The translations under genes were made by a program, and so were the position numbers. The notes beneath the pieces were generated by a model, which was not told where the DNA came from, ran no database searches, and saw nothing but the letters and a program-made list of their open reading frames with translations. Shown piece after piece: positions 1 to 32,137 of a stretch of DNA of 64,000 nucleotides. Source of the stretch: Acidobacteriota bacterium (lineage in GTDB: Bacteria; Acidobacteriota; Thermoanaerobaculia; Multivoradales; J023); contig JAJCXO010000208.1 in the NCBI GenBank assembly GCA_029263395.1, positions 1 through 64,000 of the forward strand, read 5' to 3'. Each line of letters begins with the position of its first letter. The stretch's first letter is position 1.

Positions 1-267
1 GCTCTCCTTCATCCAGTTGGTCTGCGTCAGGGTCGTGCGGGGGATCGGTTTGCTGAACCTTTCTGCATAGAGACGTTGGATGAAACACGAGCAGTCCATC
101 TTCACGTTGCTACAGGCGCCGAACTGGTACCGGACTTTGGAGTGATCGCGATGGAATTCCGAGAGAATACGCTCTCGGTCGAGAGGCCGGGCGGCTGAAA
201 GGAACAGCGCAAAGAGGCACACGAGCGCCCGCCTGCATTTGCGACCACGGCTTTGAAAGCAACGCAT
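1..267 (-). CDS. NlpC/P60-type cysteine peptidase, N-terminal part (partial)
   Basis: The reading frame is open from an ATG at 267 to the window edge (89 codons), so the C-terminus lies outside. A short basic leader and hydrophobic stretch suggest export. Residues after the leader resemble the start of an NlpC/P60 domain: a Tyr/Phe-Gly segment, then MDCSCFIQ with the expected catalytic Cys after Asp, then a PIPRTT stretch that follows the catalytic helix in this family. NlpC/P60 enzymes cleave peptide bonds in peptidoglycan stems or related amides. It is a paralogue of the next gene on the same strand (508-1482), which has lost this Cys. The His of the dyad cannot be checked here. A GTG a few codons upstream is a possible alternative start. 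Confidence 0.6.
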   Translation of the reverse strand, partial: MRCFQSRGRKCRRALVCLFALFLSAARPLDRERILSEFHRDHSKVRYQFGACSNVKMDCSCFIQRLYAERFSKPIPRTTLTQTNWMKES

Positions 268-507
268 GTGCGTTTCCAGCACGCTACTGAGACTCCCGAT
301 ATTGGTGAAGACGGTCACTGAGCAGTGACGCTGATACCCTCTAATAAAGACACGGCTCCAAGCATTTTGTGGCTTCGACTAGCTAAGCCACCGTGGTGTT
401 CGGACCTTCTATTCGACTACTCTGGGGTCGAAGAGGCTCATGGCAGGTCGTGCCGGCGAACGCACAGGGTTGGTAGCGTTCCCTAGCAAGGCGGCCGATA
501 CATAGAC

Positions 508-1482
508 TCAATCACCCAGGATGATTTCGTTGTAGATGATTAGCCATTGCTTGCCGAATCGGCCGAGCACAAAGGCCTCGTTGATCCCCTCTTCAACCAG
601 AGTATGATTCGCGTAGCTCAGGCTCGAGCTGACTTCGATGTTGCTAATCGCAAGATCTTTGAACAGCTCCAATGATTTGATAGTGAACCGGACTTGCGCG
701 CCCTCGAGATCTTGCAGTTGACGCCTTCTCTGTTGAATAATCTCTGGAAGGGTTGATTTCCGGCCACGGTGCCATCGAGTGGCTTTCTTGCTCCAGAGGT
801 GTTGGTATTGGTCGAGATCTTGCCTCTCCAAGGACCGATAGAACGAGGTGAGAACGCGACGGGCTGCCTTCCTATCTGGCGAGTCGTCGGGCGCTGGAGT
901 GTTGGGTACTTGCCTGAAGGCGTGTTTCAGCTGAGGCGTTTTGCAGTTCAGCAGGCGGTAGACCCCTTCGAGTGGCGAGGACTTGAAATGCGACAGGAGA
1001 TTGGTGCGAAGCCGCGCCCCACCTGCAGGGAAGTGAAGCACCTGATCCTCTCCAGCATAAACGACACCTCGAGAGAGGGCTTCTGATCTGCTGATGTCGT
1101 GCCGGAAGTAAATGATGTCGCCGGGGCATAGCGTGTGATCATTCAGTTGGCTGAAACTTTCGAGGTCGTTGATCCTAAATTTCTTTATCCACTCTGCTTG
1201 GACTTTTGCCGTGCGAGGAATAGGAAAGGCGAATTCTTCTATGTAGAGTCGCTGGATAAGACATGGAGAGTCCATCCGCTGCTCATAACAAGCCCCAAGT
1301 TCGTAGACCGTATCGGAATGGGCGTGGGAGAATCTTTCGATTGCTATTTTTCTGTCCGCATGGGCGGCGCTCGCTGAGATCCACCACAGGAAGGTAAGTG
1401 TCAAGACTCGGCCGGCAAGCCCGTTGTTTCTTCTTCTTGGCGCAGCCTCCGTTATATGGATTGATCTCCAAGGCATATTCAC
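508..1482 (-). CDS. Exported NlpC/P60-like protein with degenerate active site plus SnoaL/NTF2-like C-terminal domain
   Basis: The 324-residue product has a basic N-terminus and hydrophobic stretch ending near ASAAHA, consistent with a signal peptide. Residues about 45-170 align by eye with the truncated NlpC/P60 protein at 1-267 (FSHAHSD, YELGACYEQ, LIQRLYIEEF, IPRTAKVQ). However, the DCS of the active protein is DSP here, so the catalytic Cys position is Ser, and the usual His before the GxY segment is replaced (SRGVVYAG). An inactive, binding-only domain is likely. The last 125 residues (LTSFYRSLERQDLDQYQHLWS onward) look like a SnoaL/NTF2-like fold. Its start overlaps the stop of the upstream caspase-like gene by four bases (ATGA), implying translational coupling. 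Confidence 0.65.
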   Translation of the reverse strand: MNMPWRSIHITEAAPRRRNNGLAGRVLTLTFLWWISASAAHADRKIAIERFSHAHSDTVYELGACYEQRMDSPCLIQRLYIEEFAFPIPRTAKVQAEWIKKFRINDLESFSQLNDHTLCPGDIIYFRHDISRSEALSRGVVYAGEDQVLHFPAGGARLRTNLLSHFKSSPLEGVYRLLNCKTPQLKHAFRQVPNTPAPDDSPDRKAARRVLTSFYRSLERQDLDQYQHLWSKKATRWHRGRKSTLPEIIQQRRRQLQDLEGAQVRFTIKSLELFKDLAISNIEVSSSLSYANHTLVEEGINEAFVLGRFGKQWLIIYNEIILGD

Positions 1483-3503
1483 GAGACGGGGCGGTCCACG
1501 AGCAGGCTTCGGGCAGCGTTCATGATCTTTTGATGGGCTTCCGGCTGAAGTGTGTCATTCTCGCCTCCGGGTGCGAAGAGTCTAGATCGAAACAGGAATG
1601 TCAATGATTGCATGCGAATTTTTCTTTCGGTAGCCCATATTGCTATGGGAATGACTTGGGTTGCAAGGTCGGTCTCGATGAGTAAGCCAGTAACTAAGAT
1701 ATCTAGCCCGCTCGGGGTCATTATCTTTGTCACAATCCCTAGTGATTTCTCGTCATTGGTCAAGTTGGGATCAAAGAGTATGTCAATCAAATTGCTCGTT
1801 CGAGTTGGAGCACTTTGTTCGACAACGGTACTGCGGCCCCGGGGTTGGAGGTTGCGTACGCCGTCGATAAGAGCAAGCTCGATTGACTCCTGTTTGATAG
1901 GGTCGAGCTGCCTCTTTGTTTGCAGATCTATGAAGGGCAAGAAGCTTAGGCGAAGTGGACGGATCCCGAGAACGGTCTTGGCGGCGTCTTGAATGCGATT
2001 TCCGGCCGTCTGAGTCAGATCGAGGTCTTGATTCGAACGGTCGAACAGCTCTTTGTAGTTGGAGAAATTCAAGTGTTTTGTCTTTATCCTACTTTCTATC
2101 CTGGAAATAACCATCGGGCTGACTTGAATGGTGTCGTCGACCTTCACAAACATTCCGGTGATCATTACGTCGACCGGGCCGAGTATTTCATCGACGGATG
2201 CTTCGTACTTGGCCGTGCTCGTGAGCTCGAGATCAAGCCAAATGTCGGCAAGGCGGCGAGCCGCTTTCTCAGAAGTTGATCGATGACTGTTGTATCCACC
2301 ATCGAAGATGAGTTGGTTATTTGTGTGAGCTACTACTCCGATCGCCCTCCGTGTGGCCTCCGTGAGTAACCTTCCTTCTTCAGAAAGCATTGGAGCGTTT
2401 GACTGGACGTCGATGAAGGGTAGATCGCTGATACGGACGGCTGGACGATCTGGCAGCGCCAGACGGTTGTTTTCCTGGAGGCCTTCCCGCTCGCAGCTTC
2501 CAAGAGGCATTGCTGCGATACTTCCACCCAGCGAATAGGCAATACCTGGAGGGCCGGAGAGCCGAGGCTGCCTTGCTATCCATTCTGTGGTTCTCGCAGA
2601 GACGAAACTTGCGAGAGTTCTAGGTGTTATGAAGCCTCGATGGTCAGCCTGGGCTTGGCAGCGTAGACCGTCGAGAATGGCGGCGGTGAAAACACCATTT
2701 CGACGTGCTGGATCGCCATATGCGTATCCTCCCACACGAGAGGCTGAGAGGATTGCCGTTCCTTCCGACTCCTTGATGGATTCCAGGAAGGGTTCGGATA
2801 TAGCAGAACGGGGATCAGGGGTGTCGGTTGGTTGTCCACGTTTGGAATGGGGATCGGCGATGAGATCCTCTCGGCACGCGTCCAAGAGAATCAGGCGACG
2901 ACGGAGTGGTGAGCTCCGGAGTGCAGTCATGAATGAAGTTAGGTTGAGACTTGTATCGTTGACAAACGAAAGCAGAGAATCCTCAGCCATCAAGTAGTGG
3001 TTGTTTTGCTGATTGAATCCGTGAGTCGCGAAGCTGACAACGAGAAATCCGTCTTCGGTAGCCTGCAAGACCTCGCGGGCCAAGACCTTGAAGATCCGCG
3101 AGCGGCTTGCGTCGGAGACCGTTGCGTCGCTGTTCTCCAACTCTTCGAGTCTTCGGCGCGAAGCTACTTTTTCGGGTTCGCCTGAGAGGAGCAGAGTCAC
3201 TTTTTGTGGAGCGATGAGGTTCAACTCTACCGAGAACAGGTATGCGAGATCGATCGCGTCATCGACTGCATACCTGACTGGGACCAGCTTTGTATCGACG
3301 ACAAATGTCTCGATGCCAATAAAGATACCTACAGATTGCTGCCAGGAGAAGGGCTTCTCTCCGAGAAGCGCAGCTGGCAAGGGCTGGGTACTACGCGGTA
3401 AGGAATTGCCAGGAGAAGTCCTTTCTCCATGGAGGCAGCCAGATAGCAATCCGGCCAGGATAACTAAGAATGTTCCACGGCTAAACAAGAGTTGCTTCAT
3501 CAT
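1479..3503 (-). CDS. Caspase-like (C14) lipoprotein with duplicated C-terminal domain
   Basis: The 674-residue product begins with a lipoprotein signal (lipobox LSGC, Cys23). Residues about 55-330 form a caspase-like domain: an IFIGIETF start, a catalytic-type His161 in SFATHGF, and Cys210 in LLDACRED. After a linker there are two similar copies of a domain of about 150 residues, each opening with LPFID (roughly 350-505 and 510-665). These recall the N-terminal strand of CsgG/FlgO-type proteins. The His-Cys dyad appears intact, so it may be an active lipid-anchored protease. It is transcribed with the NlpC/P60-like gene (four-base overlap). The start has two adjacent Met codons and a weak ribosome site. 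The substrate is unknown. Confidence 0.75.
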   Translation of the reverse strand: MMKQLLFSRGTFLVILAGLLSGCLHGERTSPGNSLPRSTQPLPAALLGEKPFSWQQSVGIFIGIETFVVDTKLVPVRYAVDDAIDLAYLFSVELNLIAPQKVTLLLSGEPEKVASRRRLEELENSDATVSDASRSRIFKVLAREVLQATEDGFLVVSFATHGFNQQNNHYLMAEDSLLSFVNDTSLNLTSFMTALRSSPLRRRLILLDACREDLIADPHSKRGQPTDTPDPRSAISEPFLESIKESEGTAILSASRVGGYAYGDPARRNGVFTAAILDGLRCQAQADHRGFITPRTLASFVSARTTEWIARQPRLSGPPGIAYSLGGSIAAMPLGSCEREGLQENNRLALPDRPAVRISDLPFIDVQSNAPMLSEEGRLLTEATRRAIGVVAHTNNQLIFDGGYNSHRSTSEKAARRLADIWLDLELTSTAKYEASVDEILGPVDVMITGMFVKVDDTIQVSPMVISRIESRIKTKHLNFSNYKELFDRSNQDLDLTQTAGNRIQDAAKTVLGIRPLRLSFLPFIDLQTKRQLDPIKQESIELALIDGVRNLQPRGRSTVVEQSAPTRTSNLIDILFDPNLTNDEKSLGIVTKIMTPSGLDILVTGLLIETDLATQVIPIAIWATERKIRMQSLTFLFRSRLFAPGGENDTLQPEAHQKIMNAARSLLVDRPVS

Positions 3504-3742
3504 GCCGGCGACGCCGTCTCGAAACCCAAGGTGATTTTGGATGTACTCGATTCACAGTCAAAGACACAGCCATACAAACCTTGTGGTGCCTCTCAGACGA
3601 ATTGGCTATTGTGGTGGACTAGACTTTGGGAAGGGGTGAGCTCAAGAGGGAGTATTTGGCGTTGCTTTGACCTGGCTGGCTTTGGTCGGCAATCCCATAC
3701 CAGGGGCTATATAGAGTGTTCGAGGGCTCGATACATCGACTT

Positions 3743-6079
3743 CTACCTGGAGACGGATCTGAAGTGAAGGCGAGAGATTGACCAAACCTCCGGGATGAAG
3801 ACCGACTTGGCTCCACGGGTTTCTGCCCCAGTTTGAAGTATCAGCTTCTCCAGAGGAGTCGGCTTGTTCGGGCTGCGGACTCCAGAGCAGCTGAAGACCC
3901 AGGGATTGGGAACGGGATCCACTGTCGTCAGAAGGAAGTAAGTGTCAATGCCCAGTGGGGCTGTGACCTCGAAGAGCGGATTCGAGCCGAGAGGTATTTC
4001 AGCCGGGTAGGGCGCAGATTGTTCTATCGGGAAATGGTTCTCTACATTCCCTTGGCCAAAGATCGGGTAAAGCAAGGTGCAGCGACCATGACTGTCGATC
4101 GTAAACGCGTAGATGTAGCGCGACCGGATGACCTTGTGCGACGGGTCAGTGAGGCGCAGGGACAGGCCATGGCGTCCGCCCTCGACAAGCGGACCGTCAG
4201 TTCTAGGGACTTCGTCCACCAGGAGCTCCAGTTGATATGGGAACGGAGAATCGGGCGGCGATTCCAGGCGGAGCCACGAGTCGACACGGGCTAGTCCAGA
4301 AACGTCGTGTTCCAGCCGGTCAACCGCTTGGCCGAGGCTTTGTTGATCGGTAGGGTCAATATCGATCCAGCGGCTTCGCACCGGTAAATGCGAGCGTCCG
4401 CGATCTTCTCGAGTGGCCCCTCGCAGGCGCCATGCGACCTGAAGGGTGTCCTTGTGCCATCTCGTGGTCAGCACATAGCGGGCGTGTTCTAGATCGACAG
4501 GTTCCATCCGATCGCGGCGTGTGCCAGGACCTATCTCCAAGTGTTCAATGAGCTCGGTCGAGGCAGGAATCTCGACGAAGAGGCGGATTGGATTCGGCAT
4601 TTTCAAGAGCTCACGGACTACCTCGGTAGGTTGTGGCGCCTCGCCCAGGAATCGGTTGGTGTGGTCCGGGCCGAAAAGATGCCAGCCATCATCTCGCCAG
4701 CTGATGAAATGAGTTGGAGACGGGCCCTCGGTCGGATCCGAAGACAGCGCAAGGCCGGTCGCTGCGGCTGCGCGAACTAGCGAAACCGCCCATGAGTGAC
4801 TTCTTCTGCCACCAGGAGGAATCGCTATAGGCAGCTTGGGGCCTGGTGGCACGGTCCAACCGTCGAGCTCGAAGAACTGGCCTACGGTCACGACTCTTTC
4901 TGCCGGCTGACCGGCTGGCTCGACGACTGTGGCCAGGGAACGTGTCAGCCGGTCGCTCTTGGTGACTCGCAGCCGAGCCAAAGGCGCTCTATTGGAAGTC
5001 TGCGCCGCTACGAGTTCGCTACCTTTGGAGAGGCCATCGACCCAGCCTGCCTGGAGGATTACGTTGCCTTCGCTGTCGATCCCTTCCACAGCTACCCTCA
5101 ATCGGTTGGTCTTGGGGTGAACGGTGTCTCCGAAGAGTGAGCGTTGCCGCGCTATCCGAGTACCGGCCAACACGGGTTCTTGGAACGGTTGCAGGGTCGT
5201 TAGCCAGGCTCGGGTACGGGCGAAGACATCTGCTGCTGACTCGTCATCACCGGCGGAGCGGAGCGCCTGGAGGAGCGCCAGGGAGAAGGCCCCGCGAGGC
5301 GTCTGACTTTCGTCCCAAGTTTCGTAGGCCAGTTGGAAGTCCTGAGCTGCCGAGAGCACTATGGCTCCCTGATCTTCAATGGGTGGACCAGGATCCTTGC
5401 TGTCCTTCAGATCACGAGGATCAAGCTTGGCAGCACGCGGGACGATCGCTGGGTCCCGTACACCCGAGCCGCTGAAGCAGCTATCGAGCACTACAGTCAA
5501 GTTGGCCTCTTGCTCGAGCACTTCGTTGAACGCTCGACGCAGTTCCTTGTCGCGGATGTCGTCTGCACCCATCCAGGAATCTGCCGGTACGAGGGTCTCG
5601 TCTCTCTTGTCGGGCTCATCGGAACCCGAGTTGACTCTTTGAGAACCGTGGCCTGCGTAGAAGAAAACCGCTTGGTCACCCGCACGTGACGGGGCGATCA
5701 AGACTTCTTCGATCGCTTCGAGGATGGCTCTCCGGGTTGCTTGTTGGTCCAGGAGCAGCTCGACTTGATCGAATCCGTAGGTTTCTTTCAGGACATCGGC
5801 AAAGTCTGTGGCGTCGTTGACGGCGCCGGCAAGGTTACGCAACTGCCGGTCAGGCCTCGATTGGGACATTCGGGCCGTGGTCCGATCTGTCGCTGCATAG
5901 TCGTTGATGCCGATGACGACTGCCCGCTTCACAATTTGACGTTTTGCGCGTTTCTGTACGGGGTGCTCGGCCATTGCAACGGAACCAGCCAGCGCTTGGG
6001 TACAACCCGACACGATCAAAGCGCTCGAGAAGACAACGAAGAGAGCTGTGCGCCTGCCGGCGCCGAGAGAGAAGTTCAT
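3743..6079 (-). CDS. Caspase-like (C14) lipoprotein with DUF4384-like C-terminus
   Basis: The 778-residue product carries a lipobox VSGC after a hydrophobic leader. The caspase-like domain (about 48-300) shows RAVVIGINDY, His144 in FFYAGHGSQ and Cys201 in VLDSCFSGSG, all expected for C14/metacaspase-like peptidases that cleave after basic residues. A middle region of unclear fold is followed by a C-terminal segment (RYIYAFTIDSHGRCTLLYP) typical of DUF4384, often found with exported bacterial caspases. A GAGG ribosome site lies about 7 bases before the ATG at 6079. It is divergent from the CHAT gene at 6303 and upstream of another caspase lipoprotein on the same strand, with a 239-base gap. 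Membrane-anchored protease activity is inferred. Confidence 0.8.
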   Translation of the reverse strand: MNFSLGAGRRTALFVVFSSALIVSGCTQALAGSVAMAEHPVQKRAKRQIVKRAVVIGINDYAATDRTTARMSQSRPDRQLRNLAGAVNDATDFADVLKETYGFDQVELLLDQQATRRAILEAIEEVLIAPSRAGDQAVFFYAGHGSQRVNSGSDEPDKRDETLVPADSWMGADDIRDKELRRAFNEVLEQEANLTVVLDSCFSGSGVRDPAIVPRAAKLDPRDLKDSKDPGPPIEDQGAIVLSAAQDFQLAYETWDESQTPRGAFSLALLQALRSAGDDESAADVFARTRAWLTTLQPFQEPVLAGTRIARQRSLFGDTVHPKTNRLRVAVEGIDSEGNVILQAGWVDGLSKGSELVAAQTSNRAPLARLRVTKSDRLTRSLATVVEPAGQPAERVVTVGQFFELDGWTVPPGPKLPIAIPPGGRRSHSWAVSLVRAAAATGLALSSDPTEGPSPTHFISWRDDGWHLFGPDHTNRFLGEAPQPTEVVRELLKMPNPIRLFVEIPASTELIEHLEIGPGTRRDRMEPVDLEHARYVLTTRWHKDTLQVAWRLRGATREDRGRSHLPVRSRWIDIDPTDQQSLGQAVDRLEHDVSGLARVDSWLRLESPPDSPFPYQLELLVDEVPRTDGPLVEGGRHGLSLRLTDPSHKVIRSRYIYAFTIDSHGRCTLLYPIFGQGNVENHFPIEQSAPYPAEIPLGSNPLFEVTAPLGIDTYFLLTTVDPVPNPWVFSCSGVRSPNKPTPLEKLILQTGAETRGAKSVFIPEVWSISRLHFRSVSR

Positions 6080-6302: not shown

Positions 6303-9188
6303 ATGAAACGAATCTTAGCTATGGCGGCACTTGTGGGTTTGCTAGCCACAGAAGCCCATAGCCAGCACTCGGCTCTTGCAACCTGTCCATTGGATCCAGG
6401 TCTCAGAGAAGTCAACGAAGCGTGCAAAGAGGGAAGCCCAGCTCTGAAACCCACGACGTGTTCTGCCCTTCGCGCCCTTGAGCACCTGGCGCGAGATGAA
6501 GCAGAAGCTGCCGGGTCTATTCTCACGAGCGAGCTCGCGGTACCAGCTTCTTCGGTTGAAAAGATGATGTCTTGGCTCAACTTCCTAGGGATGAGCGTGA
6601 TCGACCTCGACGATAGCCCGGCTAAGTGTACTCAAGCCCAAGGATTAAGATTGATTGGGCTTGCCGCTTCGGGATTCTTAGAAGACATACAGCATCCGGA
6701 AACCTTATTGCTCTTGGGACGGGTCGTGCAATGGTCCGAGGTACTTATGGGAAAGCTCGAGGAACGCTTGAGTCCAGAGGCTCGCCCAGCGCTTCGCGTC
6801 TTCACGCGAGCCGTCAGCGAGTTAGTGGCGAGGGCTCAGCTCGGCGACTTGATCCAACAAGGGTTGACGTCTAATCCGATGGTCGAGATGATTGCGGGGC
6901 GTTTTATCCCGAGCGATCCCACGGTCAAAGAGCTCGCGACTCAAGAGGCGAGACTTCAAGTCGATCTAGCCATTGAGCTGGCGCAGGCGGGTAGCTTGCC
7001 GGAAGCGAGGGGAGCGGTCTCGAGGGCTGTGACTCTCGCCGAATCAGACCAAGAAAAAGCCCTACTATTGCTACGAGCTGGAGTGCGGCTCGCAGCGATC
7101 GGGCACCTCGAAGAAGGGCTCTACTTCTTACAACAGGTCGAGAACGCCACCAGCAGTTCGCCTAGCACAGAGGAAATCCGGGCCATCCGATCCGTGGCGA
7201 AGTGGTTCGTCGCCCTGAGCCATGATGAGCTTAACCTGGAGCGCCCCGTAGGCAGCGAGGAGGTCAGGCTTCTCGAGGGCGAGCTCGGGGACATCATCGA
7301 CGCGTTTGGCCGGGGCATCCTCGCACGGGACGAATCTACTTCTGCTGCAATATCGGATATCGCTCGAATTTTGGCTTCGGAAGAAGTTAGCGCCGAAGAG
7401 CTAGAGCCCTTGATGAGTGTCATCGAGCAGGTTCTTCCAGGACTGGATACGGGGGCGGGAACCGCTAGGTATGCGACCTCGAACTGGAATATCCGGACGG
7501 CAGCTTCTCAGGGTTTGAAATCGTATCCCGACTTCATGTTGAAGATCACCGAGCTCATGGTCCTCGGACGTTATGAGGACGCAGCTGCTGAAGCCAAAGA
7601 GTTCATCACTCACTATCCCAAATACAACAACATTTACATGTTGACGCTGGTGGCGGTCAAGCAGTGGCTGGCTGGCGATCGTGCTGCCGCTATAGCCAAC
7701 AATCGCGAAGCCGTTGTCGCGCTCGAGAAGTTGGTGGAGGCCTTCCGTGTCGACGAATTGCAAACCGCTTTCGTCGACGACAAGGTTGTCCTGGCCTTCC
7801 GTCTCGCTTTGGAAATGTCTGCGCAAGAAGGGCGAGTTGACGAGGCTTTCGACTATGCTGAGCGGTTGCGAAGTTGGACATTGCGGCGCCTGTTGGGCGG
7901 CACGAGGACGATAGGAGATCCGGTCGAAGGAAGTCGTGGAGCCGAAGACCACAAGCTCTTGCCCGAGATTCGGGAGCTCGAGGGAATCGTGCTTCAGTCT
8001 GGTCAAGCTCACGAGGCACGAAGGAAGTTGTCACGCAAACGCGCCGAGTTTGCGACCCGGCGCCTCGAGAAGAAGCTCGACGCCGCAGGATCGAGTGCTC
8101 TTGCGCAGGTTGAGACCATCACTTTAGAAGAACTACAGAAGAGCGAAGTGCTGGATCCCGAGACGACGCTCCTCGCTTATGCTGCGGGGCTCGACGGCTT
8201 GTGGGCTTGGGTCATCGATAGGGAATCCAAGGAGATGTTTTATCTTCCTATCTCAGAAGAGGAGCTCGATCGCCTCGCCTGCCTGGCAGCAGAGCAGAGA
8301 CGTCCCGGGACACGGGGCGTTAGCTCGCTGAGTTTATGTCAAGGTCTGCCCGGCCCAACTTCGACAGCACTATACACTCAACTCATAGAGCCCTTGGCGG
8401 ACTATATTCGCAAGAAAAACCTGATCATCGTGCCTACTGGTTTGCTAAACCACATCTCCTTTGCTGCACTCCAGAACCCGCGAACCCAACGATACTTGAT
8501 TCAAGACTTTGCACTGAGCCTGGCTCCCAGTGCCACAGCTTTAACGCAGTTGTTGGCATCCGCGCGGGTCGAACGCCAGGGCAACACGCTGATCCTCGGT
8601 GACCCGACTACGGAATGGAGACGTCTTGCCGGTGCGGAGCATGAGGCGAAGGAAGTAGCGAAGCTTTTCGGGATCGAGCCTCGAATCGGAGAACAGGCGA
8701 CCGAGCATGCCGTTCATGAACATGCTGGAAACTTGAACATACTCCATTTGGCAGCCCATGGTGAATATACGGCGGAGAACCCGATCTTCAGCGGCATCCT
8801 CCTAGGCGCTGACACCGTTCACGATGGGCGTCTCGAAATGCACGAGGTCTGGGATGAGCTGAATCTGAACGGCACTCGACTGGTAACCCTCTCAGGGTGT
8901 CAGACGGCGATCGGTGAAACGACTCGTGGTGACGAGGTAGTCGGCCTGACTCAGGCCTTTCTGGTCGCTGGGAGTCGCGCGGTGTTATCGACACTGTGGA
9001 AGGTGCATGACAAAGCTTCAGCAGCATTGATGGTGGCTTTTTATCGCCAACTTCGTGGCGGAAAGTCCGTTTCGGAAGCGCTGCAAGCCGCGCAACTGGA
9101 GCTACTGAATGACCAGGTCTATTTCGAGCCGTACTATTGGGCTGGATATACCTTGACGGGAGACCCGCGGACTCGGTGGCTTGACTAG
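6303..9188 (+). CDS. Exported TPR-CHAT domain protease-like protein (CHAT 1)
   Basis: The 961-residue protein has a signal peptide (about residues 1-20). It then has a long alpha-helical region with tetratricopeptide-like pairs (for example VDLAIELAQAGSLPEARGAVSRAVTLAESD and DEAFDYAERLRSWTLRRLLGG). The CHAT domain fills the last 330 residues, with His819 in HLAAHGEY and Cys866 in LSGCQTAIG. CHAT proteases belong to the caspase/separase clan. The terminal YWAGYTLTGDP motif is typical of the family. It is a clear paralogue of the CHAT proteins at 12787-16488 and 25116-28196 (shared Cys-rich N-terminal segment, shared RAWTLRRLLG-like motif, same C-terminus). It leads a tandem pair with the next CHAT gene. 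Confidence 0.85.
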   Translation: MKRILAMAALVGLLATEAHSQHSALATCPLDPGLREVNEACKEGSPALKPTTCSALRALEHLARDEAEAAGSILTSELAVPASSVEKMMSWLNFLGMSVIDLDDSPAKCTQAQGLRLIGLAASGFLEDIQHPETLLLLGRVVQWSEVLMGKLEERLSPEARPALRVFTRAVSELVARAQLGDLIQQGLTSNPMVEMIAGRFIPSDPTVKELATQEARLQVDLAIELAQAGSLPEARGAVSRAVTLAESDQEKALLLLRAGVRLAAIGHLEEGLYFLQQVENATSSSPSTEEIRAIRSVAKWFVALSHDELNLERPVGSEEVRLLEGELGDIIDAFGRGILARDESTSAAISDIARILASEEVSAEELEPLMSVIEQVLPGLDTGAGTARYATSNWNIRTAASQGLKSYPDFMLKITELMVLGRYEDAAAEAKEFITHYPKYNNIYMLTLVAVKQWLAGDRAAAIANNREAVVALEKLVEAFRVDELQTAFVDDKVVLAFRLALEMSAQEGRVDEAFDYAERLRSWTLRRLLGGTRTIGDPVEGSRGAEDHKLLPEIRELEGIVLQSGQAHEARRKLSRKRAEFATRRLEKKLDAAGSSALAQVETITLEELQKSEVLDPETTLLAYAAGLDGLWAWVIDRESKEMFYLPISEEELDRLACLAAEQRRPGTRGVSSLSLCQGLPGPTSTALYTQLIEPLADYIRKKNLIIVPTGLLNHISFAALQNPRTQRYLIQDFALSLAPSATALTQLLASARVERQGNTLILGDPTTEWRRLAGAEHEAKEVAKLFGIEPRIGEQATEHAVHEHAGNLNILHLAAHGEYTAENPIFSGILLGADTVHDGRLEMHEVWDELNLNGTRLVTLSGCQTAIGETTRGDEVVGLTQAFLVAGSRAVLSTLWKVHDKASAALMVAFYRQLRGGKSVSEALQAAQLELLNDQVYFEPYYWAGYTLTGDPRTRWLD

Positions 9189-9293
9189 AGTCGGTTGACC
9201 CTGTTCGGGGGCGCGATGTTGCCAAGAACCTCTGGATCCAGCCATGGTTTTGGCCGAGCCGTCCGGAGGTCTTCTAATAAGGAGGGGGTGTCT

Positions 9294-21781: not shown

Positions 21782-21795
21782 CGAGCGGGGGGCTC

Positions 21796-23745: not shown

Positions 23746-23759
23746 GAGAGAGGTTGGCG

Positions 23760-25100: not shown

Positions 25101-25115
25101 AGTAGCTCTAATTCT

Positions 25116-28100
25116 TCAGCGGTCTGCTGCCGCTCTTTTGGAATCAGTCGAGCTGTCAGCTCGGACCGATCGCCACCAACGGGCTCGGTGATCGCCAGTC
25201 AAAGTAAAGCCTGCCCAGAAGTAGGGGGCCGAATAGCTCTCGTCCTGCATCAGCTCGAGTTGGGCAGAGCGCAGCGCCTCGGCCGCCGGCGCGTTGTTGC
25301 GCCAGTGGCGGTAAAAGGCGATCATCAGTTCCTTCGAGGCCTGGTCTGACACTGGCCAGAGGGTGGCTAAGACCGACCGACTGCCTGCTACCAGAAAGGC
25401 CTGAGTGAGGCCGATGACTTCATCGCCTGCGGTCGACGCACCGACTGCTGTCAAGCAGCCCGATAGGGTCACGAGTTGGGTGCCTTCGAGATTCAGCTGG
25501 TCCCAGACTTCATGCACTGTCAGCGTCCCGTCGTTGTGCTGGTCGGAGCTGAGAGCGATACGACTGAAGGTCGGATTTGCAGGGACGTATTCACCATGGG
25601 CGGCAAGGTGGAGAAGCCCAAGGTTCCCGGCGCGCGCACGGACTGCGGTTTCCGTAGCCTTTGGCCCGAGAAGTGGCTGAGTGTCGAGGAATCGAGCGAT
25701 CGCCCGCGCTTCGCCGCGGGCTCCCTTTAGATCTCCCAGCTGAGTATCCGGGTCACCGAGGATCAACGCTGCTCGGCCTATCGAGTCAATCCTTCTAGCG
25801 AGGGTGGCCAATGCAGTGACGCTCGGGGCTAAGCTGAGGGTGTACTGCTCAATCATGTAGCTGTCTTTTTCCGGATCTCTCAGGGCGGCGAACGGCAGGT
25901 AGTTCAAGAGCCCGTAAGGCACCACGGTTACATGACGATAGCCGCGGAGCTCCTCGGCGATGGGTTGAATGAATCTTCCATGCAAAGATGTAGCTGGGAC
26001 GAGGGTGTCGGCCCCACAATCGCTTATCGGCACAGCTCCCCTGGCCATTGCTGCATGTCGTTTGCTCGGCGGCGCCAGACGCCAGCGAAGCTGTTGGACC
26101 TCGCACTCTGCCTCTTCTCGAGCTTTCTGATCCATCGTCAGTACCTGCGAAGCAACATTCTGACGATCTACGACCCACACCCACAAACGCCCAGCGGCCT
26201 CGCCTTGGTCGGCGAGGCCAGGAAAGTAAGCGAGGATGGCTTCGCCCTCCTGTAAGAGCTCGTGCTGTAGCCGCTCGAGTTTCACTGGGCTGACTCGAGC
26301 CAGCCTTTCTTTTCCAGGCGCGTCGAGTTTGCTTTGTAGCCGTAGTGCTTCGTATTCGTTGCGGTAGCGACTCAGGAGCTCTTTCTCGGCTTCGGTAGGG
26401 CGTCCCAGCTGTTCGAGGTCGAACAACTGGGTCAGCAGACGCTGGGCTCTTGGGTCGTTTGCCGGCCAGACTGACCCATCGTCGAGACGCTGCGGGCTTC
26501 CGAGAAGGCGGCGCAGCGTCCAGGCTCGTCCTCGCTCGGCAAGGTCGAATGCTTCTTGGTGCCGGCCCAGTCTTCCGGCCAACTCGACAGCGAGCTGGTG
26601 AAGAGCGAATCCCTTGCCACCGAAAAAGTTGGTCAAGGTCTCGTCGACGCGAAAAACATCGACGTGGGATTCGATGAATTCGATCGCTCGTCGACTGATT
26701 TCCAGGGCTTCAGGGAGTTGCCCGAGCTTCCAGTGCTGCACCGCAACTAGCGCGAGTACCCAGGCGTTCTGGTACCGAGGATAGTGCTCTAGAAGCACCC
26801 GAGTCGTACGCTCGGCCTTCTCGAGCTCGTTTTCCGCGATGTGCCCGAAGACTTGCAAGAGTAGTTCGAAGTAAGCAGGGGGAGCTGGTGTTGGGCGCGT
26901 TTCGCCGGTCGAAGCCAACCAGGGCAGGACCTGTTCGAGAGCAGCCATCGTCGTCTCGAGACCTTCCATATCGCGGTCTGGGGCAAATAGAAGCGACGAT
27001 ACTGCACTGAACATGCCGGACAATTGATCGAAATCCAGTCCCTTTGAGGTCGAATTGACGAATGAGGGGTCCATGCCCGTCAACAACATGGCGAAGAAGT
27101 CGTTGCGGTTGCTGGCTTCTGTCGCGACTCGATTACTCTCGGCGGGAAGGCCAATTTCTTCCAGGGCGAGAGCCCGAAACCAAGAGCCCAAGCTTCGCGC
27201 TCGTTGCGCCTCCTCGTTTTCGGGAACGCTCGCCAAAAGTGCATCGGCTTGCTGTAGCAAGACGGCGGCATCTTCCAGGAGACCCAGAAGCGCGAACGCT
27301 ACGCCTGCGCTCAATGCTAATTGCCCTTCGCGTGCAGGGTCTTTGCTGGTGAGCTCACGAGCTTCTGCGAGCTCTTCTCGTGCGTCTTCCAGCCGATTGC
27401 GACCGACCAGGTTCAAGATCTCATGGAGCGTGCCCAGATCGTCGACTCGAGACTCAGCAGTGTCTTCGGGAAGACTCGCCCGGGGTATATCGTGTTGGCC
27501 AGCGAGCCATATCGGGTTTGCGAGCTGGAGTATCGGATTGTTGTCGAGGGCTCCCCTCAACTCTTCCTCGGCGGAGGCTGTCGTGAAGAGCTCTGCGAGA
27601 GCTTCACCCAAGGTGTTGAGCAAGCCAGCTGTTGATGGATCGAGCTGCTCCTCCACTCTGGAGATCAGATTTTCCGGGGCTAGCGGAACAATGTGATTAA
27701 AGAAGAGAAGGGCCTCGAAGCTTTGGAGGGCCATGAAGGTTTCAGATCGAGAAAAGAGTGCCAAGATCTGACGCAGCTGATGTTCGAAACAAGCTACCGG
27801 CTCGTCGTCGGTGGCCATCATCGCAAGCATCTGCAGCAAGGGTGTGAGCTTCGCGGCAACCGTCTCCTTCAGGCCCAGGTCGCGCTGCAGAATCTGCTGC
27901 GACTGTACGAGATCACCAGCAACCGCTGACGCGAGGGCCTCCAAGAGTTCGCAGGTTGTAGATCCTGTTTCAGCGCTGCCAGCCTGGCAGGTGGTTTGGA
28001 CCTGAGCGAGATCGGGTGCGAGTCGGCAATCCATCTCGGGCAGATAAGGTCGTACCTGCCGTTCGTTGTCCTGATCCAGCTCGATGGCCGTGCTCTGGGT

Positions 28101-28196
28101 GTGGGGACCGGCTGGTGATGCCAGCGTCACTCCACTGATAGCGAGCGTGGCGAGCACACAGAGCATGACGGGTTTCCAGGGCTTTCCATCGAACAT
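25116..28196 (-). CDS. Exported TPR-CHAT protein (CHAT 4)
   Basis: The start ATG at 28196 follows a strong AGGAGGT ribosome site; an earlier in-frame ATG at 28253 lacks one. The 1026-residue protein has a signal peptide (ending near TLASPAG) and a Cys-containing N-terminal segment shared with CHAT 1 (CxxxxxQVxxxC spacing). Helical TPR-like repeats follow, with the RAWTLRRLLGSPQ motif and then a CHAT domain with His867 (HLAAHGEY) and Cys914 (LSGCLTAVG). The terminal FWAGFTLTGD motif is as in CHAT 1. It converges with the ABC operon, 15 bases away, and is followed downstream on its own strand by nothing. Confidence 0.85.
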   Translation of the reverse strand: MFDGKPWKPVMLCVLATLAISGVTLASPAGPHTQSTAIELDQDNERQVRPYLPEMDCRLAPDLAQVQTTCQAGSAETGSTTCELLEALASAVAGDLVQSQQILQRDLGLKETVAAKLTPLLQMLAMMATDDEPVACFEHQLRQILALFSRSETFMALQSFEALLFFNHIVPLAPENLISRVEEQLDPSTAGLLNTLGEALAELFTTASAEEELRGALDNNPILQLANPIWLAGQHDIPRASLPEDTAESRVDDLGTLHEILNLVGRNRLEDAREELAEARELTSKDPAREGQLALSAGVAFALLGLLEDAAVLLQQADALLASVPENEEAQRARSLGSWFRALALEEIGLPAESNRVATEASNRNDFFAMLLTGMDPSFVNSTSKGLDFDQLSGMFSAVSSLLFAPDRDMEGLETTMAALEQVLPWLASTGETRPTPAPPAYFELLLQVFGHIAENELEKAERTTRVLLEHYPRYQNAWVLALVAVQHWKLGQLPEALEISRRAIEFIESHVDVFRVDETLTNFFGGKGFALHQLAVELAGRLGRHQEAFDLAERGRAWTLRRLLGSPQRLDDGSVWPANDPRAQRLLTQLFDLEQLGRPTEAEKELLSRYRNEYEALRLQSKLDAPGKERLARVSPVKLERLQHELLQEGEAILAYFPGLADQGEAAGRLWVWVVDRQNVASQVLTMDQKAREEAECEVQQLRWRLAPPSKRHAAMARGAVPISDCGADTLVPATSLHGRFIQPIAEELRGYRHVTVVPYGLLNYLPFAALRDPEKDSYMIEQYTLSLAPSVTALATLARRIDSIGRAALILGDPDTQLGDLKGARGEARAIARFLDTQPLLGPKATETAVRARAGNLGLLHLAAHGEYVPANPTFSRIALSSDQHNDGTLTVHEVWDQLNLEGTQLVTLSGCLTAVGASTAGDEVIGLTQAFLVAGSRSVLATLWPVSDQASKELMIAFYRHWRNNAPAAEALRSAQLELMQDESYSAPYFWAGFTLTGDHRARWWRSVRADSSTDSKRAAADR

Positions 28197-28307
28197 CGTG
28201 ACACCTCCTGGTTTGGCGGAAAGACGGGTCTGCCTTTCCATAGGGAGAGACACGAGCGATACTGGAAAGTAGGCGCGCTGTGTGATCCTTGGAATGTGGC
28301 CTAGAGG

Positions 28308-29540
28308 CTATTGCTTCTTCAGGAACAAGAGAGTCTCATCGCCGGGTGCCGGATCTACCGGCAGACAAGCCTGGCTGTCGTCGCCCACGGACCACGTGGT
28401 GCGAGACTTTCTGAAGTTGCGATCGTCGAAGCGGATGCGCTGGATCTCTTGGTCTCCGGCATCGTAGCGGACCGCCTCGAAGTCGATATCGAATTGACCA
28501 AAACTAGAGCGAGCCTGAAGTTCGAAGACGAGCCCCGTCAGCCCATGGCATTCGCCCCAATGTGCCGGGGACGCGTCAAAATACTCAGCTAGATCTCCCC
28601 AGTTGATTTTTGGTACCGAGGAGCGGGGTGGTTGCCTAGGAACTATTCTTGGGAGTTGGGGACTCTTGGGGCCCGATGTTGACGGTTGGGGAGGTGGGGG
28701 AGATTTTGCCGGGAACTGCGAGCGAAACACGAACTCGCCGCCTTCGTGCTGAGGGAGATGATCAGCAACCGGGGTTTGAGCGTCGTCGGTGGCAGCAGGA
28801 ATCACGTAGCTCGCGAGCTCTGAGAAGGTAATGAATCCGTCTGCATTGAGATCGGCTTCACTGTCGCGTAGGCCCTTGAGCAAATAGCCCGTAAACAAGC
28901 TGTGACCAAACGGGCCGGTATCGCGAACCCGGTCGTTCTTACCGCCGGCAGTCAGGATGTCGCGCGCACGCCGCTTTGTTATGACGTCGATGTAATCGGG
29001 CCTCTGGTTGTCGACCCTCATCACTCCGCGGCGATTGAGGCCCAGCATGCCGCCGTAGCAGGCATCCATGATGAAGAGTTGGTGCCGCGCTTTGCCCATC
29101 TTGCTGGATAGGGTACGGATCTCCTCCATCGAGATGTGGCTAGCGCTCTCATCGCTGGCGTCTGCAGGAACGATGTACCCCCAGTCTTCACCTCCCAGTG
29201 TCTCGGTGTGGCCGTGGCCGGCAAAGAAGAATAGGACTCGATCATCAGGGCCTAGGCGTCGAGCGAGCCGATGGATGTGCGTCAGGATCTCTTGTTTGGT
29301 AGCGGCCGCATTGTAAAGCGACTCGACCTCGAAGCCGTGACCTCGGAGATACTTGGCGAAGTCTTGGGCGTCTTTGACGGCAAAGGCCAGCGACTGCCAC
29401 TGAGTTGACGGATACTCATCGATGCCAATCACAAGGGCGCGGCTGGTGGCGAAGGGTCCTCGAGAGTTCTTGCTCTGGGCTTGTGTCGCGACGGGTCCCA
29501 TGGCGAAGGCCATGAGTAGGACCAGGAATCCTAGCCTCAA
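28308..29540 (-). CDS. Exported caspase-like (C14) protein
   Basis: The 410-residue protein has a signal peptide (MRLGFLVLLMAFAMGPVATQAQS). The caspase domain (about 30-260) has ALVIGIDEYP, His109 in FFFAGHGH and Cys161 in IMDACYGG, with the LTAGGKNDRV and GHSLFTGYLLKGL elements of bacterial C14 peptidases. A proline-rich linker (about 275-305) is followed by a 90-residue C-terminal domain with several Trp and Cys residues that I do not recognise. The start overlaps the stop of the SHOCT gene by four bases, so the two are translationally coupled. The protein is probably periplasmic and active. Confidence 0.8.
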   Translation of the reverse strand: MRLGFLVLLMAFAMGPVATQAQSKNSRGPFATSRALVIGIDEYPSTQWQSLAFAVKDAQDFAKYLRGHGFEVESLYNAAATKQEILTHIHRLARRLGPDDRVLFFFAGHGHTETLGGEDWGYIVPADASDESASHISMEEIRTLSSKMGKARHQLFIMDACYGGMLGLNRRGVMRVDNQRPDYIDVITKRRARDILTAGGKNDRVRDTGPFGHSLFTGYLLKGLRDSEADLNADGFITFSELASYVIPAATDDAQTPVADHLPQHEGGEFVFRSQFPAKSPPPPQPSTSGPKSPQLPRIVPRQPPRSSVPKINWGDLAEYFDASPAHWGECHGLTGLVFELQARSSFGQFDIDFEAVRYDAGDQEIQRIRFDDRNFRKSRTTWSVGDDSQACLPVDPAPGDETLLFLKKQ

Positions 29541-30211
29541 TCTTGCTTCTCCAGGATCAACTTGCCGCGATACTCGGGCCCGGACCCAGTTCCGCCGCCA
29601 TGACCGTCGAACACGGTGTAGGTTCCTCGGATCTCGTGTTCGGTAAAGCGTTCCAGTCGGATGGATTCATAGGCGCCCATGATGCCCCGGATCGTGAATG
29701 CGATCTTGTCTGGGGTGACGCTGATGTTTTCGATGGCAACTTCTTCGAACGGACTTCCCTTGGAGCCTGAAATGGGAATGAATTCGCTGTTTGGGGCCGA
29801 CTGCCTCAGGATCAGTCGATTACCGACCAGGGACAATTTCCATCGGAGAAATCCTACAGTTTTGTCGAGGGTGTAATGGGGAGCCCAGATACTCAGACCT
29901 TCGACTCTTACCGACCAGATACCGGCTAGATCTCTCTTTGCCGGCTGCTGGGCTGAGCCGGCGCGTGAGCCATGGCCTGTCGATACCGTGGGCTTTGGGG
30001 CCTTCTTTTGGGGGGTACCGTTCAAGATTTGTCGGACTCTTTCTTCATAGATGCTCTTGGGGATGAGCTTTTGGTCGTAGAGGGTCTTGAGCTCCTTCAG
30101 ACGTTGTTGCTGATCGTCCTGAGCCAGTGCAATTGTCGGCCCAGAGGTGGCAGTTGCTGCACAGCCGAGGATCACCAACCAGCATAGGATTGTGTTGCGT
30201 CGCAGCTGCAT
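29537..30211 (-). CDS. Exported SHOCT-domain protein
   Basis: The start at 30211 is preceded by GGGAGG and begins a signal peptide (MQLRRNTILCWLVILGCAAT...ALAQ). Just after cleavage, a 30-residue SHOCT motif (RLKELKTLYDQKLIPKSIYEE) is visible; this is a short helical oligomerisation motif found in many bacterial multidomain proteins. The rest of the 224 residues contain a Trp-rich beta domain (GIWSVRVEGLSIWAPHYTL and later strands) that I do not recognise. It is coupled to the caspase gene at 28308-29540, so it may be its partner or inhibitor; that is inference from gene order. Confidence 0.6.
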   Translation of the reverse strand: MQLRRNTILCWLVILGCAATATSGPTIALAQDDQQQRLKELKTLYDQKLIPKSIYEERVRQILNGTPQKKAPKPTVSTGHGSRAGSAQQPAKRDLAGIWSVRVEGLSIWAPHYTLDKTVGFLRWKLSLVGNRLILRQSAPNSEFIPISGSKGSPFEEVAIENISVTPDKIAFTIRGIMGAYESIRLERFTEHEIRGTYTVFDGHGGGTGSGPEYRGKLILEKQD

Positions 30212-30463
30212 GTGCTGTCCTCCCTGGTTTCCACTATTTGACGATTGTTGGGTTATTAGGTATGGCGATGACCAGTCTAGAAACACAACACTTGTGCAGC
30301 CTCCATCTAGAAGGTTTAGAGGGGTGTTTCGCTGCCAAAAGCGCCAGACAGCGTCGACCTCTAGTAGGCTATTCACGAGTATCGCGAGGTGAACCTTACA
30401 TCGGGTAAATCCACAAAAAATTAGCTACAAAACAACAGACGACAGGTGCCGTCGAAAGGCACG
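30212..30463 (-). terminator. Intergenic region with a possible hairpin terminator
   Basis: A 252-base gap follows the CsgG-like gene on the minus strand. A perfect 5-bp stem (GTGCC/GGCAC, 30446-30462, 7-base loop) lies just after that gene's stop, with a T-rich stretch downstream on the minus strand. This is a weak candidate terminator. The remainder must contain the promoter of the SHOCT-caspase pair; nothing else is seen. Confidence 0.3.
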
Positions 30464-32137
30464 TTAGTCCTGGAGATTTGCCAGGATCTTGCGGTCTTCG
30501 AGGGCTAAGATCTCCAGCGGGAAAATTTTAGCTTGGCCAAGTAGAGTCTCCGCCAACTGGTCAGTGGGGCCGCGGTGCTCCACCCGAAATTTTACCGTTC
30601 CGTTCTGAAAAGACTCTTTCCGGACGTTGGATATCAGTTCGATATCCACAAGTGCCTTCTGCAGTCTGGAGCTGCTAGCGAAGTCGATCTGGCTGATGAC
30701 GAGTTCAGTACTACCCACGCCCGGGCTGCGATCGCTTACGGCAAACGGGGCGGATGTTCCATCGACGTACGAGAACTTCTTGTCAGCACATATCTCGGTG
30801 TAGAAATAGTCCGCCACCTTTCCCCCGGCCTTTCGCAGAGCGGTTTTTCCGGCAATAACTTCGGACACGTCTGCTGCAGAAGCATGCAAGCCATCTGCCG
30901 CGACAATACGGCCGGTGCTTACCTCTATTGCCTTCGCCTCGACCCGTGCGCGGCAAGATGTCATTCCATTGATCTGTTTCGAAAACTCGCTGAACGCCTC
31001 GCCGGTGATCACGATGTCGGCTTCGAATTCGCGACCCAAGGCGGCTGCTACCGCGGGGTCGTTGTCGACCAAGAGGAATCGTGATTCTTGTCGCAGGGAT
31101 TGCATTTGCCGCTCATCTACCAAGAGAAAGCCACGTTCGATAAAGCGTTTTACAATCTCAGTCTCTCCCGCCGGATCGGGTGGCCTGATGGCTCGTTGAA
31201 CTGAAGCCTGCATCGCGTTGATGTCGATTGTGCTTTGCGGCTGCGCGTGCCGGTTGCCTTCATACTCGTCGAATTCAAAGGCACGGCCGTCACCATATGA
31301 GCCAAAGTGTCCCAGTAGGTGTTCTTCCGGAATCGCTACGAGAACCCGTGGCGGCCTTGCTGCAGATTCAAGCAACTCACAGACCTTGGGAATCTCGGAA
31401 ATATTGGCTTTCGCGCTCTGAACAGCGGGAGTGGCATCTGCCATTTGAGTCCGAAAGGGTGCAAGATACTGTACCGCTCCAATAATACCCTCCTCGATCG
31501 CATCGGCCATCGCTTTGCTGATCTGACCAGCACCTGCGAATGCTCCGCGGCCCCAGGCCGAACCGGCGAGACCTACTGAGTTACGCTTTTTTTCGAAACT
31601 TTGCGAGCTGAGTACCAATGCCGAGCTCGTATCGACGATCCTAATAATGAAGCCGATATGAGCGCGCCTCAAACCAAAATTACCCGCTGCTTCAGCGACG
31701 CGACCGCGACTGAAGACTCTTCCCAGTCGTCGGGCCGCGCCGGAAACGGCGGCCTCGTTCTGTGAGAATTCGGTGAGCTCTCCTAGGATCTGATAGCGTG
31801 CGCCTCGAATCTGACCGAGGTTAGCCGCACTCTCTTCCGTCACCGCCCCGCTCTGTCCAAAAGCCTGCTCGTTCATCACATCATCGAGACGAGCGCGTTC
31901 GACGACATTAAAACAACCGCTGTTGAGCAAAGCGTTTGACAACATCGATGCCATTCCACCGCCGACTTCACCGGTGACGTCTACCTTGATCTTGAAATCC
32001 ATAACCGCGACAGTCGGCCGCTGGTCGGGGGGCAGGTCGTGACAGATCTTTCGGGCCTCGTCGACGCGGACTTGTGCCACAAGTCCCATCGGTAATAGGC
32101 AAGTAGCAACAAACACCATAGCGACTTCTCGTTTCAT
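30464..32137 (-). CDS. CsgG/FlgO-like exported protein
   Basis: The ATG at 32137 follows a clear AGGAGG site. The 557-residue product has a signal peptide ending GLVAQ. Residues about 38-240 match the CsgG/FlgO-type fold: PTVAVMDFKIKVDV, a SNALLNSGCFNVVERARLDDVMNEQ segment, and GARYQILGELTEFSQ. CsgG forms outer-membrane secretion pores. However, this protein lacks a visible lipobox Cys at the mature N-terminus, and it has a second similar half (about 270-430: VLVAIPEEHL, IVKRFIERGFLLVDERQMQ, ADIVITGEAFSEF). Pore formation is therefore not certain. It lies at the edge of the caspase/CHAT block and may be its outer-membrane component. Confidence 0.7.
   Translation of the reverse strand: MKREVAMVFVATCLLPMGLVAQVRVDEARKICHDLPPDQRPTVAVMDFKIKVDVTGEVGGGMASMLSNALLNSGCFNVVERARLDDVMNEQAFGQSGAVTEESAANLGQIRGARYQILGELTEFSQNEAAVSGAARRLGRVFSRGRVAEAAGNFGLRRAHIGFIIRIVDTSSALVLSSQSFEKKRNSVGLAGSAWGRGAFAGAGQISKAMADAIEEGIIGAVQYLAPFRTQMADATPAVQSAKANISEIPKVCELLESAARPPRVLVAIPEEHLLGHFGSYGDGRAFEFDEYEGNRHAQPQSTIDINAMQASVQRAIRPPDPAGETEIVKRFIERGFLLVDERQMQSLRQESRFLLVDNDPAVAAALGREFEADIVITGEAFSEFSKQINGMTSCRARVEAKAIEVSTGRIVAADGLHASAADVSEVIAGKTALRKAGGKVADYFYTEICADKKFSYVDGTSAPFAVSDRSPGVGSTELVISQIDFASSSRLQKALVDIELISNVRKESFQNGTVKFRVEHRGPTDQLAETLLGQAKIFPLEILALEDRKILANLQD

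Follow-up and report, generated by a model that had tools for sequence, protein, structure and literature searches.

A candidate exported caspase/CHAT protease locus around an FtsX-type ABC operon in Acidobacteriota

Proteases with predicted export signals

The left part of a 64,000-nucleotide stretch of an Acidobacteriota genome (contig JAJCXO010000208.1, here C208; the whole stretch is called the window) carries three caspase-like (C14) and four CHAT-domain protease genes around an operon for an ABC ATPase, a vWA protein, an FtsX-type permease and a protein with a predicted FGE fold (the quartet). We propose, with a probability of roughly 0.4, that these genes form a conserved, patchily distributed periplasmic proteolytic locus. 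It would be switchable, an FtsEX-like ABC complex would act as its gate, and cell wall cleavage would be one of its outputs. The genes, their export signals, the catalytic dyads, linkage within contigs and co-occurrence in other genomes make up the sequence-based layer of this proposal. The genome of the window (assembly of 10.68 Mb) is referred to as G000; G018 and G027 are genomes from two other Acidobacteriota families of the same order.

The region 508–32137 comprises 16 genes, next to an NlpC/P60 gene that is cut at 1–318. CaspA (1479–3503, minus strand) and CaspB (3743–6079, minus strand) are predicted lipoproteins with a C14 domain, and CaspC (28308–29540, minus strand) is a predicted exported C14 caspase; the three C14 domains (PF00656) score 34.2, 80.3 and 70.9 bits against a cut-off of 21.4. 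CHAT1 (6303–9188, plus strand), the TPR-CHAT protein CHAT2 (9195–12755, plus strand; likely start around 9294), CHAT3 (12787–16488, minus strand) and CHAT4 (25116–28253, minus strand; likely start around 28196) are predicted exported proteases, whose CHAT domains (PF12770) score 239–254 bits against a cut-off of 24. The His and Cys of the dyad are kept in all seven proteins. The initial annotation of this DNA, made from the sequence alone, had described three caspase-like and four CHAT proteins with intact dyads, and this inventory stands, all seven being above the Pfam cut-off.

The same annotation had ascribed signal peptides or lipoboxes to almost all members. Export was predicted here with a home-made rule, not SignalP, that considers n-region charge, a hydrophobic core and a cleavage site or lipobox at any start within the first 80 codons. 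All 14 complete genes besides those of the ABC ATPase and the FtsX permease are marked (the rule also marks the permease, via its first transmembrane (TM) segment), compared with 2 of 85 stretches taken from inside these proteins and 5 of 22 mechanical open reading frames (ORFs) of at least 150 aa in 32.5–64 kb. An export signal is also carried by 21 of the 25 tested relatives from G018, G027 and Beggiatoaceae. By these predictions the gene set of the window looks exported to the cell envelope. Export is no hallmark of the locus, however: G000 has 42 CHAT matches (one without an ORF) and 17 C14 matches, and the rule marks at least 21 of 41 CHAT ORFs and at least 7 of 15 C14 ORFs (17 rows, one ORF being present three times and CaspA absent), both counts being lower bounds as several ORFs are cut or have a doubtful start.

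Seven CHAT/C14 genes lie within 28.1 kb of the window, above the maximum of 5 per 28.1 kb obtained in 20,000 random placements of 57 such genes (41 + 16) on 10.68 Mb, a null that takes no account of the tandem duplication which took place here. Since CHAT1, CHAT3 and CHAT4 are nearest each other in the CHAT tree (see below), tandem duplication accounts for part of this clustering. Elsewhere in G000, an extracytoplasmic function (ECF) sigma gene lies within 3 kb of 22 of the 37 off-window CHAT ORFs (e.g., at L042, L045, L040 and L035); no ECF sigma gene lies within 3 kb of the four CHATs of the window. Several of the ECF-CHAT neighbourhoods also hold an anti-sigma-like gene, a pattern that recalls Csx29 with CASP-sigma. 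In G018, the quartet also has a sigma-70-type ECF gene nearby (L014:8472–9122).

The ABC-vWA-FtsX-FGE quartet

The segment 19113–25100 (plus strand) reads as an operon and encodes an ABC ATPase (19113–19922; ABC_tran, with Walker A, VSGG and Walker B motifs), an exported vWA protein (19919–21781; predicted vWA fold with a MIDAS-like DATAS motif), an FtsX-type permease (21796–23745; four predicted TM segments, the first two about 465 residues apart) and an exported coiled-coil protein with a C-terminal FGE-like fold obtained from structure prediction (23754–25100). The member list of the initial annotation lacks the ATPase, the permease and the FGE-fold protein, which lie at the centre of the locus. 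A scan of 18400–19300 for promoters and terminators found nothing. The best PADLOC match of the ATPase, mad3 (3.7e-22), is confined to the C-terminal ATPase part.

The permease matches the FtsX C-terminal domain (PF02687) with 54.2 bits against a cut-off of 25.5, and hydropathy gives it the four TM segments of the FtsX architecture. Its best NCBIfam match is FtsX itself (TIGR00439, 1.4e-7), with 31.1 bits short of the cut-off of 255. Profile searches of solved structures matched the permease to YbbP at 0.005 and to FtsX at 0.098; the vWA profile found no sequence relative there, and the hits of the FGE profile, all at E 0.013 or above, are to coiled coils or otherwise look like chance. A structural model of the vWA protein (pLDDT 70) aligns with integrin beta I-domains over 200 residues (Z around 19–20), within model residues 202–460 only. 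The FGE-fold protein reaches no Pfam family at cut-off (PF03781: 11.8 against 23.3 bits). In a Foldseek search of the PDB, ranks 1–15 of its model (mean pLDDT 64.6) are EgtB, FGE, OvsA and CalU17, the last of which we take to have an FGE-like fold, with probabilities of 0.97–1.00 and TM-scores of 0.26–0.46; an FGE fold is predicted from this model.

At E 1e-8 the vWA protein occurs in 3 of 147 genomes, G000, G018 and G027, which represent three families of the order; the proteins of G018 and G027 share 61 and 58% identity with that of the window. Among genomes drawn from the whole phylum it was found in 1 of 396, G000 itself, with G018 and G027 not among the rows listed. The quartet DNA has no match in the plasmid records searched, and the vWA alignment matches 0 of 122 candidate stretches of viral contigs. 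The order of the quartet is the same in G018 and G027, with 33–60% identity, the FGE-fold protein being the least conserved member (33–39%). The divergent neighbour of the ABC gene is an exported CHAT of 1122 residues in G018, and two ORFs in G027, the best match of which is the N-terminal part of the G018 CHAT (35% identity over 370 residues, E 9e-54). The stop of the FGE gene of G027 is overlapped by 4 bases by an NlpC/P60 gene (PF00877, 55.2 bits).

The barrel-protease block and the CHAT clade

The quartet of the window is adjoined by a FadL/PorV-like outer-membrane barrel (17571–18893, minus strand; Pfam FadL, 29.2 bits, just below the cut-off of 29.7), followed by TPRpro, an exported TPR/proline-rich protein (16519–17571, minus strand; the mechanical ORF extends to 17769), and by CHAT3. 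Beyond the two plus-strand CHATs, the minus strand continues with CaspB, CaspA and NlpC. Comparable blocks are found in G018 (contig C193) and G027 (contig C116), where FadL, a TPR protein, a CHAT and two C14 genes follow each other on one strand. Identity between the G018 and G027 copies is 44–56% for FadL, TPR and C14 proteins. At 1e-30, FadL-like barrels occur in 29 of 59 genomes, so the barrel family itself is common. Contig C23 of G018 stops soon after the start of a FadL gene; 120 of its bases are identical to the start of C193, but C23 extends 149 bases further, and a join of the two is likely. Between C109 and C116 of G027 no overlap was found. In G027, a 950-residue vWA protein with a signal peptide (L129:10472–13324) lies directly after the caspase pair.

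A CHAT tree was made of 39 domains: 37 of at least 180 residues, drawn from the 41 CHAT ORFs of G000 together with one ORF of G018, and two added. CHAT1, CHAT3 and CHAT4, two CHATs of G018 and one of G027 form one clade (99/98), with CHAT2 and 32 other CHATs of G000 outside it. The N-terminal parts of the locus CHATs diverge faster than the CHAT domains: the G018 and G027 proteins share 32.5% identity in the former and 56.2% in the latter, and other locus pairs 22–34% and 41–55%, with N-terminal borders set by hand. As the CHAT domain diverges more slowly, the N-termini fit recognition parts under change.

A second conserved block at the left edge

The N-terminal half of an NlpC/P60 protein (1–318, minus strand; PF00877, 23.2 bits against 23) is truncated by the contig end and keeps its catalytic Cys motif. 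Positions 2–658 of contig C30 of G000 resemble the C-terminal half of such a protein, matching the query from residue 111 on, and are followed by relatives of the genes of contig C2 of G018 in the same order (28–57% identity), with one extra CaspA-like tail gene. The split NlpC gene and this synteny make it most likely that the left edge of C208 adjoins C30, the two having no shared overlap. C2 of G018 holds a CaspB relative (38% identity, 394 bits), a CHAT whose best match in the window is CHAT2, an NlpC gene, a DUF3108-like protein, two FtsX-type permeases, an ABC ATPase and further exported proteins. NlpC and FtsX-type ABC genes thus stand together in this second block as well.

Outside G000, a search of the 147 genomes at E 1e-40 gave CaspB relatives at 12 places, spread over 9 genomes. 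In 10 of the 11 places viewed (that of G013 is not included) a CHAT lies within about 8.5 kb, the exception being on a 6.1 kb contig. At the loci L180–L187, a cassette of a CHAT with a CaspB-like and, in many cases, a CaspA-like caspase recurs, for the most part in the family f13 of the class; an ECF gene is also flagged in four of these stretches.

Relatives outside Acidobacteriota

A search of public contigs with the single vWA protein found none, and a search with an alignment found seven loci, the contig of G027 and six from Thiotrichaceae, Thiomargarita and Parabeggiatoa. The full quartet is on no single Beggiatoaceae/Thiomargarita contig. The genes are ordered ABC-vWA-vWA-FtsX in L023 and in L022 (cut within FtsX), vWA-FtsX-FGE-FGE in L024, FtsX-FGE-FGE in L079 and L082, and ABC-vWA-vWA followed by a response regulator in L019 and L020. 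Tandem vWA genes, two FGE-fold paralogues or both are seen in L019, L022, L023, L024, L079 and L082; one FGE paralogue carries PEGA/carboxypeptidase-regulatory domains and two vWA copies weakly match TssR_VWA. For an exported WD40 protein beside one Beggiatoaceae FtsX copy, C14 is not among the best 25 of 57 families.

In the family of genome G496, 15 of 42 genomes match the vWA protein at 1e-8; G496–G500 and G527 (cut by a contig end) match over most of its length and nine others weakly, around the vWA domain. Among genomes drawn from the class of G496, 1 of 369 has it, namely G496. Each of the seven Beggiatoaceae/Thiomargarita genomes searched has between 1 and 49 CHAT matches; G499 has a single one, which is below the cut-off. 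The homologous quartet genes in Acidobacteriota and Beggiatoaceae/Thiomargarita suggest interphylum transfer, with loss elsewhere as the alternative.

Proposed function and rival readings

We propose that the vWA and FGE-fold proteins would respond to ATP hydrolysis in the cytoplasm by way of the FtsX-type permease, whose large outer domain would relay it in the manner of FtsEX and its wall-hydrolase partners. A signal would then free or activate the CHAT proteases, whose fast-evolving helical N-termini may select a ligand or partner. The CHATs would cleave a neighbour (a caspase, the TPR protein or the barrel), giving a periplasmic proteolytic step together with peptidoglycan cleavage, and the envelope may thereby be opened or rebuilt in a controlled way, perhaps when the cell is attacked. 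We infer the physical contacts, the control by ATP, the choice of cleavage partners and the purpose. So patchy a distribution suits an accessory or conflict function more than a housekeeping one, without deciding between them. In favour of the proposal we count the export marks in the window and in its relatives, the conserved quartet order with an exported CHAT beside it in G018 and, in G027, the N-terminal part of a CHAT of that family and the overlapping NlpC/P60 gene, the best match of the permease to FtsX, the predicted vWA and FGE folds, the NlpC and FtsX-type ABC genes of the second block, the one-strand blocks of G018 and G027, the locus clade of CHATs and their N-terminal divergence.

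Several observations weigh against it. The vWA protein is absent from G001, of the same genus, and from the other four members of the family that were searched. Part of the link between quartet and protease block runs across separate contigs, with presumed joins. The ABC gene of the window adjoins the FadL barrel and not a CHAT, and the CHAT beside the ABC gene of G027 is split in two ORFs with its CHAT part missing at a contig end, which points to a broken gene or to an assembly error. The barrel-side caspases of G018 and G027 are not orthologues of CaspA or CaspB: in G000 they best match a lipoprotein caspase encoded on C30 (375 bits for C14a, compared with 81 for CaspB), and the barrel-protease block keeps, by these matches, the kind of part and not the exact caspase. 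In the second caspase of the G027 block (L129:8192–10429) a Tyr replaces the catalytic Cys. The complete NlpC copy of the window (508–1482, minus strand), an exported NlpC/P60-like protein with a SnoaL-like tail, has lost the Cys and first His motifs that are kept in the 1–318/C30, G018 and G027 copies; it looks inactive, and scores 22.6 bits against the PF00877 cut-off of 23. Finally, the quartet is partly split in Beggiatoaceae, L019 having FtsX-FGE-FGE on another contig, and among the matches listed for the Beggiatoaceae stretches none is to a CHAT or caspase that resembles the window's, where weak ones could escape.

The foremost rival is that independent exported CHAT/caspase cassettes came together by chance next to a separate transporter, the quartet. 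We consider this unlikely, although it accounts for the abundance of CHAT and C14 matches in G000, at least half of whose CHAT ORFs (21 of 41) are marked as exported, for the ECF sigma genes beside 22 of 37 off-window CHAT ORFs and 0 of 4 in the window, and for the Beggiatoaceae quartet parts that stand without CHAT. The same kinds of part recur beside the quartet in three families, though, the CHAT clade is specific to the locus, and 7 genes per 28 kb were never reached in the 20,000 random placements. Maturation of surface proteins ranks next and is rather improbable: barrel, TPR protein and caspase-fold proteases would act as a PorV/PorU-like outer-membrane complex, with the ABC transporter energising release or assembly. 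CaspA and CaspB as predicted lipoproteins would suit such a complex; on C36 and C97 of G000 barrels adjoin TPR-caspase proteins, and several other genomes have barrels next to TPR proteins. A resemblance of the FadL barrel to the models of PorV/PorQ (2.4e-9 and 8.5e-9, under the cut-offs) is confined to N-terminal parts, the PorV cut-off is missed (37.2 against 90 bits) and PorU belongs to a different peptidase family.

Release or display of the exported CHATs and caspases as a weapon against neighbouring cells is quite improbable. The export signals agree with it, and fratricide was proposed in 2012 for exported metacaspases (PMC3501461); among the 17 window proteins, however, no known toxin, delivery or immunity family was found at E 0.01, at which novel ones could escape. 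Least probable by far are cytoplasmic immune proteases of the gasdermin or Craspase type with misread N-termini. PADLOC, with a scope of 10 of the 16 window genes, matches CHAT1 to BovA (1.2e-12), CaspB to 'caspase' (2.4e-19) and the ABC ATPase to mad3 (3.7e-22). This is outweighed by the export marks (14/14 against 2/85 controls, and 21/25 relatives) and by the window proteins, for the 17 of which no gasdermin or Cas family is listed. Beyond the proposal of a gated periplasmic locus, a broader and more doubtful idea is that a vWA/FGE-sensing FtsX-type ABC 'switch' controls an extracytoplasmic caspase/CHAT cascade, a counterpart of cytoplasmic caspase immunity that would make up an undescribed class of envelope system, and that this switch is common to large-genome Acidobacteriota and giant sulfur bacteria, with other outputs in the latter.

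Comparison with known systems

In FtsEX, the ABC ATPase moves an outer domain and a wall hydrolase is thereby switched on, the partners being EnvC/amidases, PcsB and NlpC/P60 hydrolases. We liken the locus to FtsEX because the permease has FtsX as its top NCBIfam hit and an NlpC/P60 gene stands beside FtsX-type ABC genes in both blocks; shared features are the ABC ATPase, the permease with four predicted TM segments and an outer domain, and the NlpC/P60 neighbour in G027. It differs in the size of the outer domain (about 465 residues), the exported vWA and FGE-fold proteins, the protease genes and the missed TIGR00439 cut-off.

Experiments on bacterial caspases and CHAT proteases mainly address cytoplasmic immunity. 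The CHATs of the window resemble TPR-CHAT proteins (Csx29, gasdermin-linked CHAT) in their long N-terminal part, with TPR in CHAT2, and a C-terminal CHAT domain with the dyad, and differ in carrying export signals. A signal peptide or lipobox in 7 of 7 (home-made rule) is at odds with the cytoplasmic proteases of gasdermin-linked systems; no Pfam match to gasdermin was found among the 17 window proteins at E 0.01, where a divergent one could escape. Likewise, no Cas family, such as the Cas7-11 of Craspase (type III-E), is listed for these 17 proteins, the C30 side lying outside the scan. Csx29 sits with Csx30 and CASP-sigma according to PMC10028731, and the off-window CHATs of G000 resemble it in their ECF sigma neighbours.

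Type IX PorV/PorU resembles the locus in placing a FadL/PorV-like barrel beside caspase-fold proteases, but the protease families differ, and none of the PorV/PorQ model cut-offs is reached (37.2/90, 34.8/325 and 21.1/220 bits). In a comparison with VMAP and EACC1 systems, we take C-type-lectin parts to be FGE-like. MoxR-vWA-VMAP ternary and EACC1 caspase systems have vWA, C-type-lectin and caspase parts (PMC7159879, PMC8195603, PMC10907252), to which the vWA, FGE-fold and caspase parts of the locus are comparable. In contrast, the ATPase of the locus is an ABC protein with an FtsX permease and not MoxR, and the vWA and FGE-fold proteins are exported; no MoxR family is listed among the window proteins, the ATPase adjoining vWA being ABC_tran, and the model of EACC1-associated caspases (NF047832) gives 51.7, 49.4 and 74.1 bits against a cut-off of 140. 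In the main text of the conflict-system surveys PMC7159879 and PMC8195603 the terms 'ABC' and 'signal peptide' are absent, and 'FtsX' is also absent from PMC7159879.

The survey of Asplund-Samuelsson from 2012 describes 46 metacaspases with an N-terminal helix, maybe a signal peptide, and discusses surface and fratricidal roles (PMC3501461). These proteins share a C14 domain and a probable N-terminal signal with the caspases of the window; the term 'CHAT' is absent from that text, and no FtsX-type ABC or FGE partner is seen in the passages covered (PMC3501461). The premise of the initial annotation that known caspase/CHAT proteins are cytoplasmic is thus not supported, and as at least 21 of 41 CHATs of G000 look exported as well, export in itself is not novel. 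A search for the gene set in related genomes, as it had suggested, found the core co-occurring in G018 and G027 with the order largely kept, so that comparison backs the locus beyond what the sequence alone could tell. Since export is predicted and the core is found elsewhere, neither outcome that it had named as contrary, failing signal peptide prediction or lack of co-occurrence, was observed. Its claim of a proteolytic 'network' is not supported. Its interpretation is partly supported: export and co-occurrence are borne out, the novelty of export is not, and the proposed function is unproven. In the seen part of the open-licence literature we found no description of an FtsX-ABC-linked protease locus. 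From sequence, the locus suggests that 'death-type' proteases are also used beyond the cytoplasm; it offers a testable handle on the roles of exported caspase-fold proteases and bears on the switching of proteases in a compartment free of ATP.

Other genes of the region and barrel loci elsewhere

Of the other members named in the initial annotation, FadL and the complete NlpC protein are each just below their Pfam cut-offs, and the SHOCT assignment and the conservation of CsgG are not upheld. The SHOCT label of an exported protein of 224 residues (29537–30211, minus strand) goes back to a SHOCT-like motif seen by eye only, and was rejected as no Pfam family matched up to E 10. The exported CsgG/LpoB-like protein (30464–32137, minus strand) was rejected as a conserved member; besides itself it has 10 weak matches of 28–35% identity across 9 of 14 genomes. 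The membership of both in the locus is doubtful. Elsewhere, FadL barrels at L138:1859–6852 and L137:8196–12664 lie near a protein that combines a signal peptide, TPR and a STAND-like ATPase; these loci also hold an AAA-kinase protein, which in G016 is fused to an ECF sigma domain.

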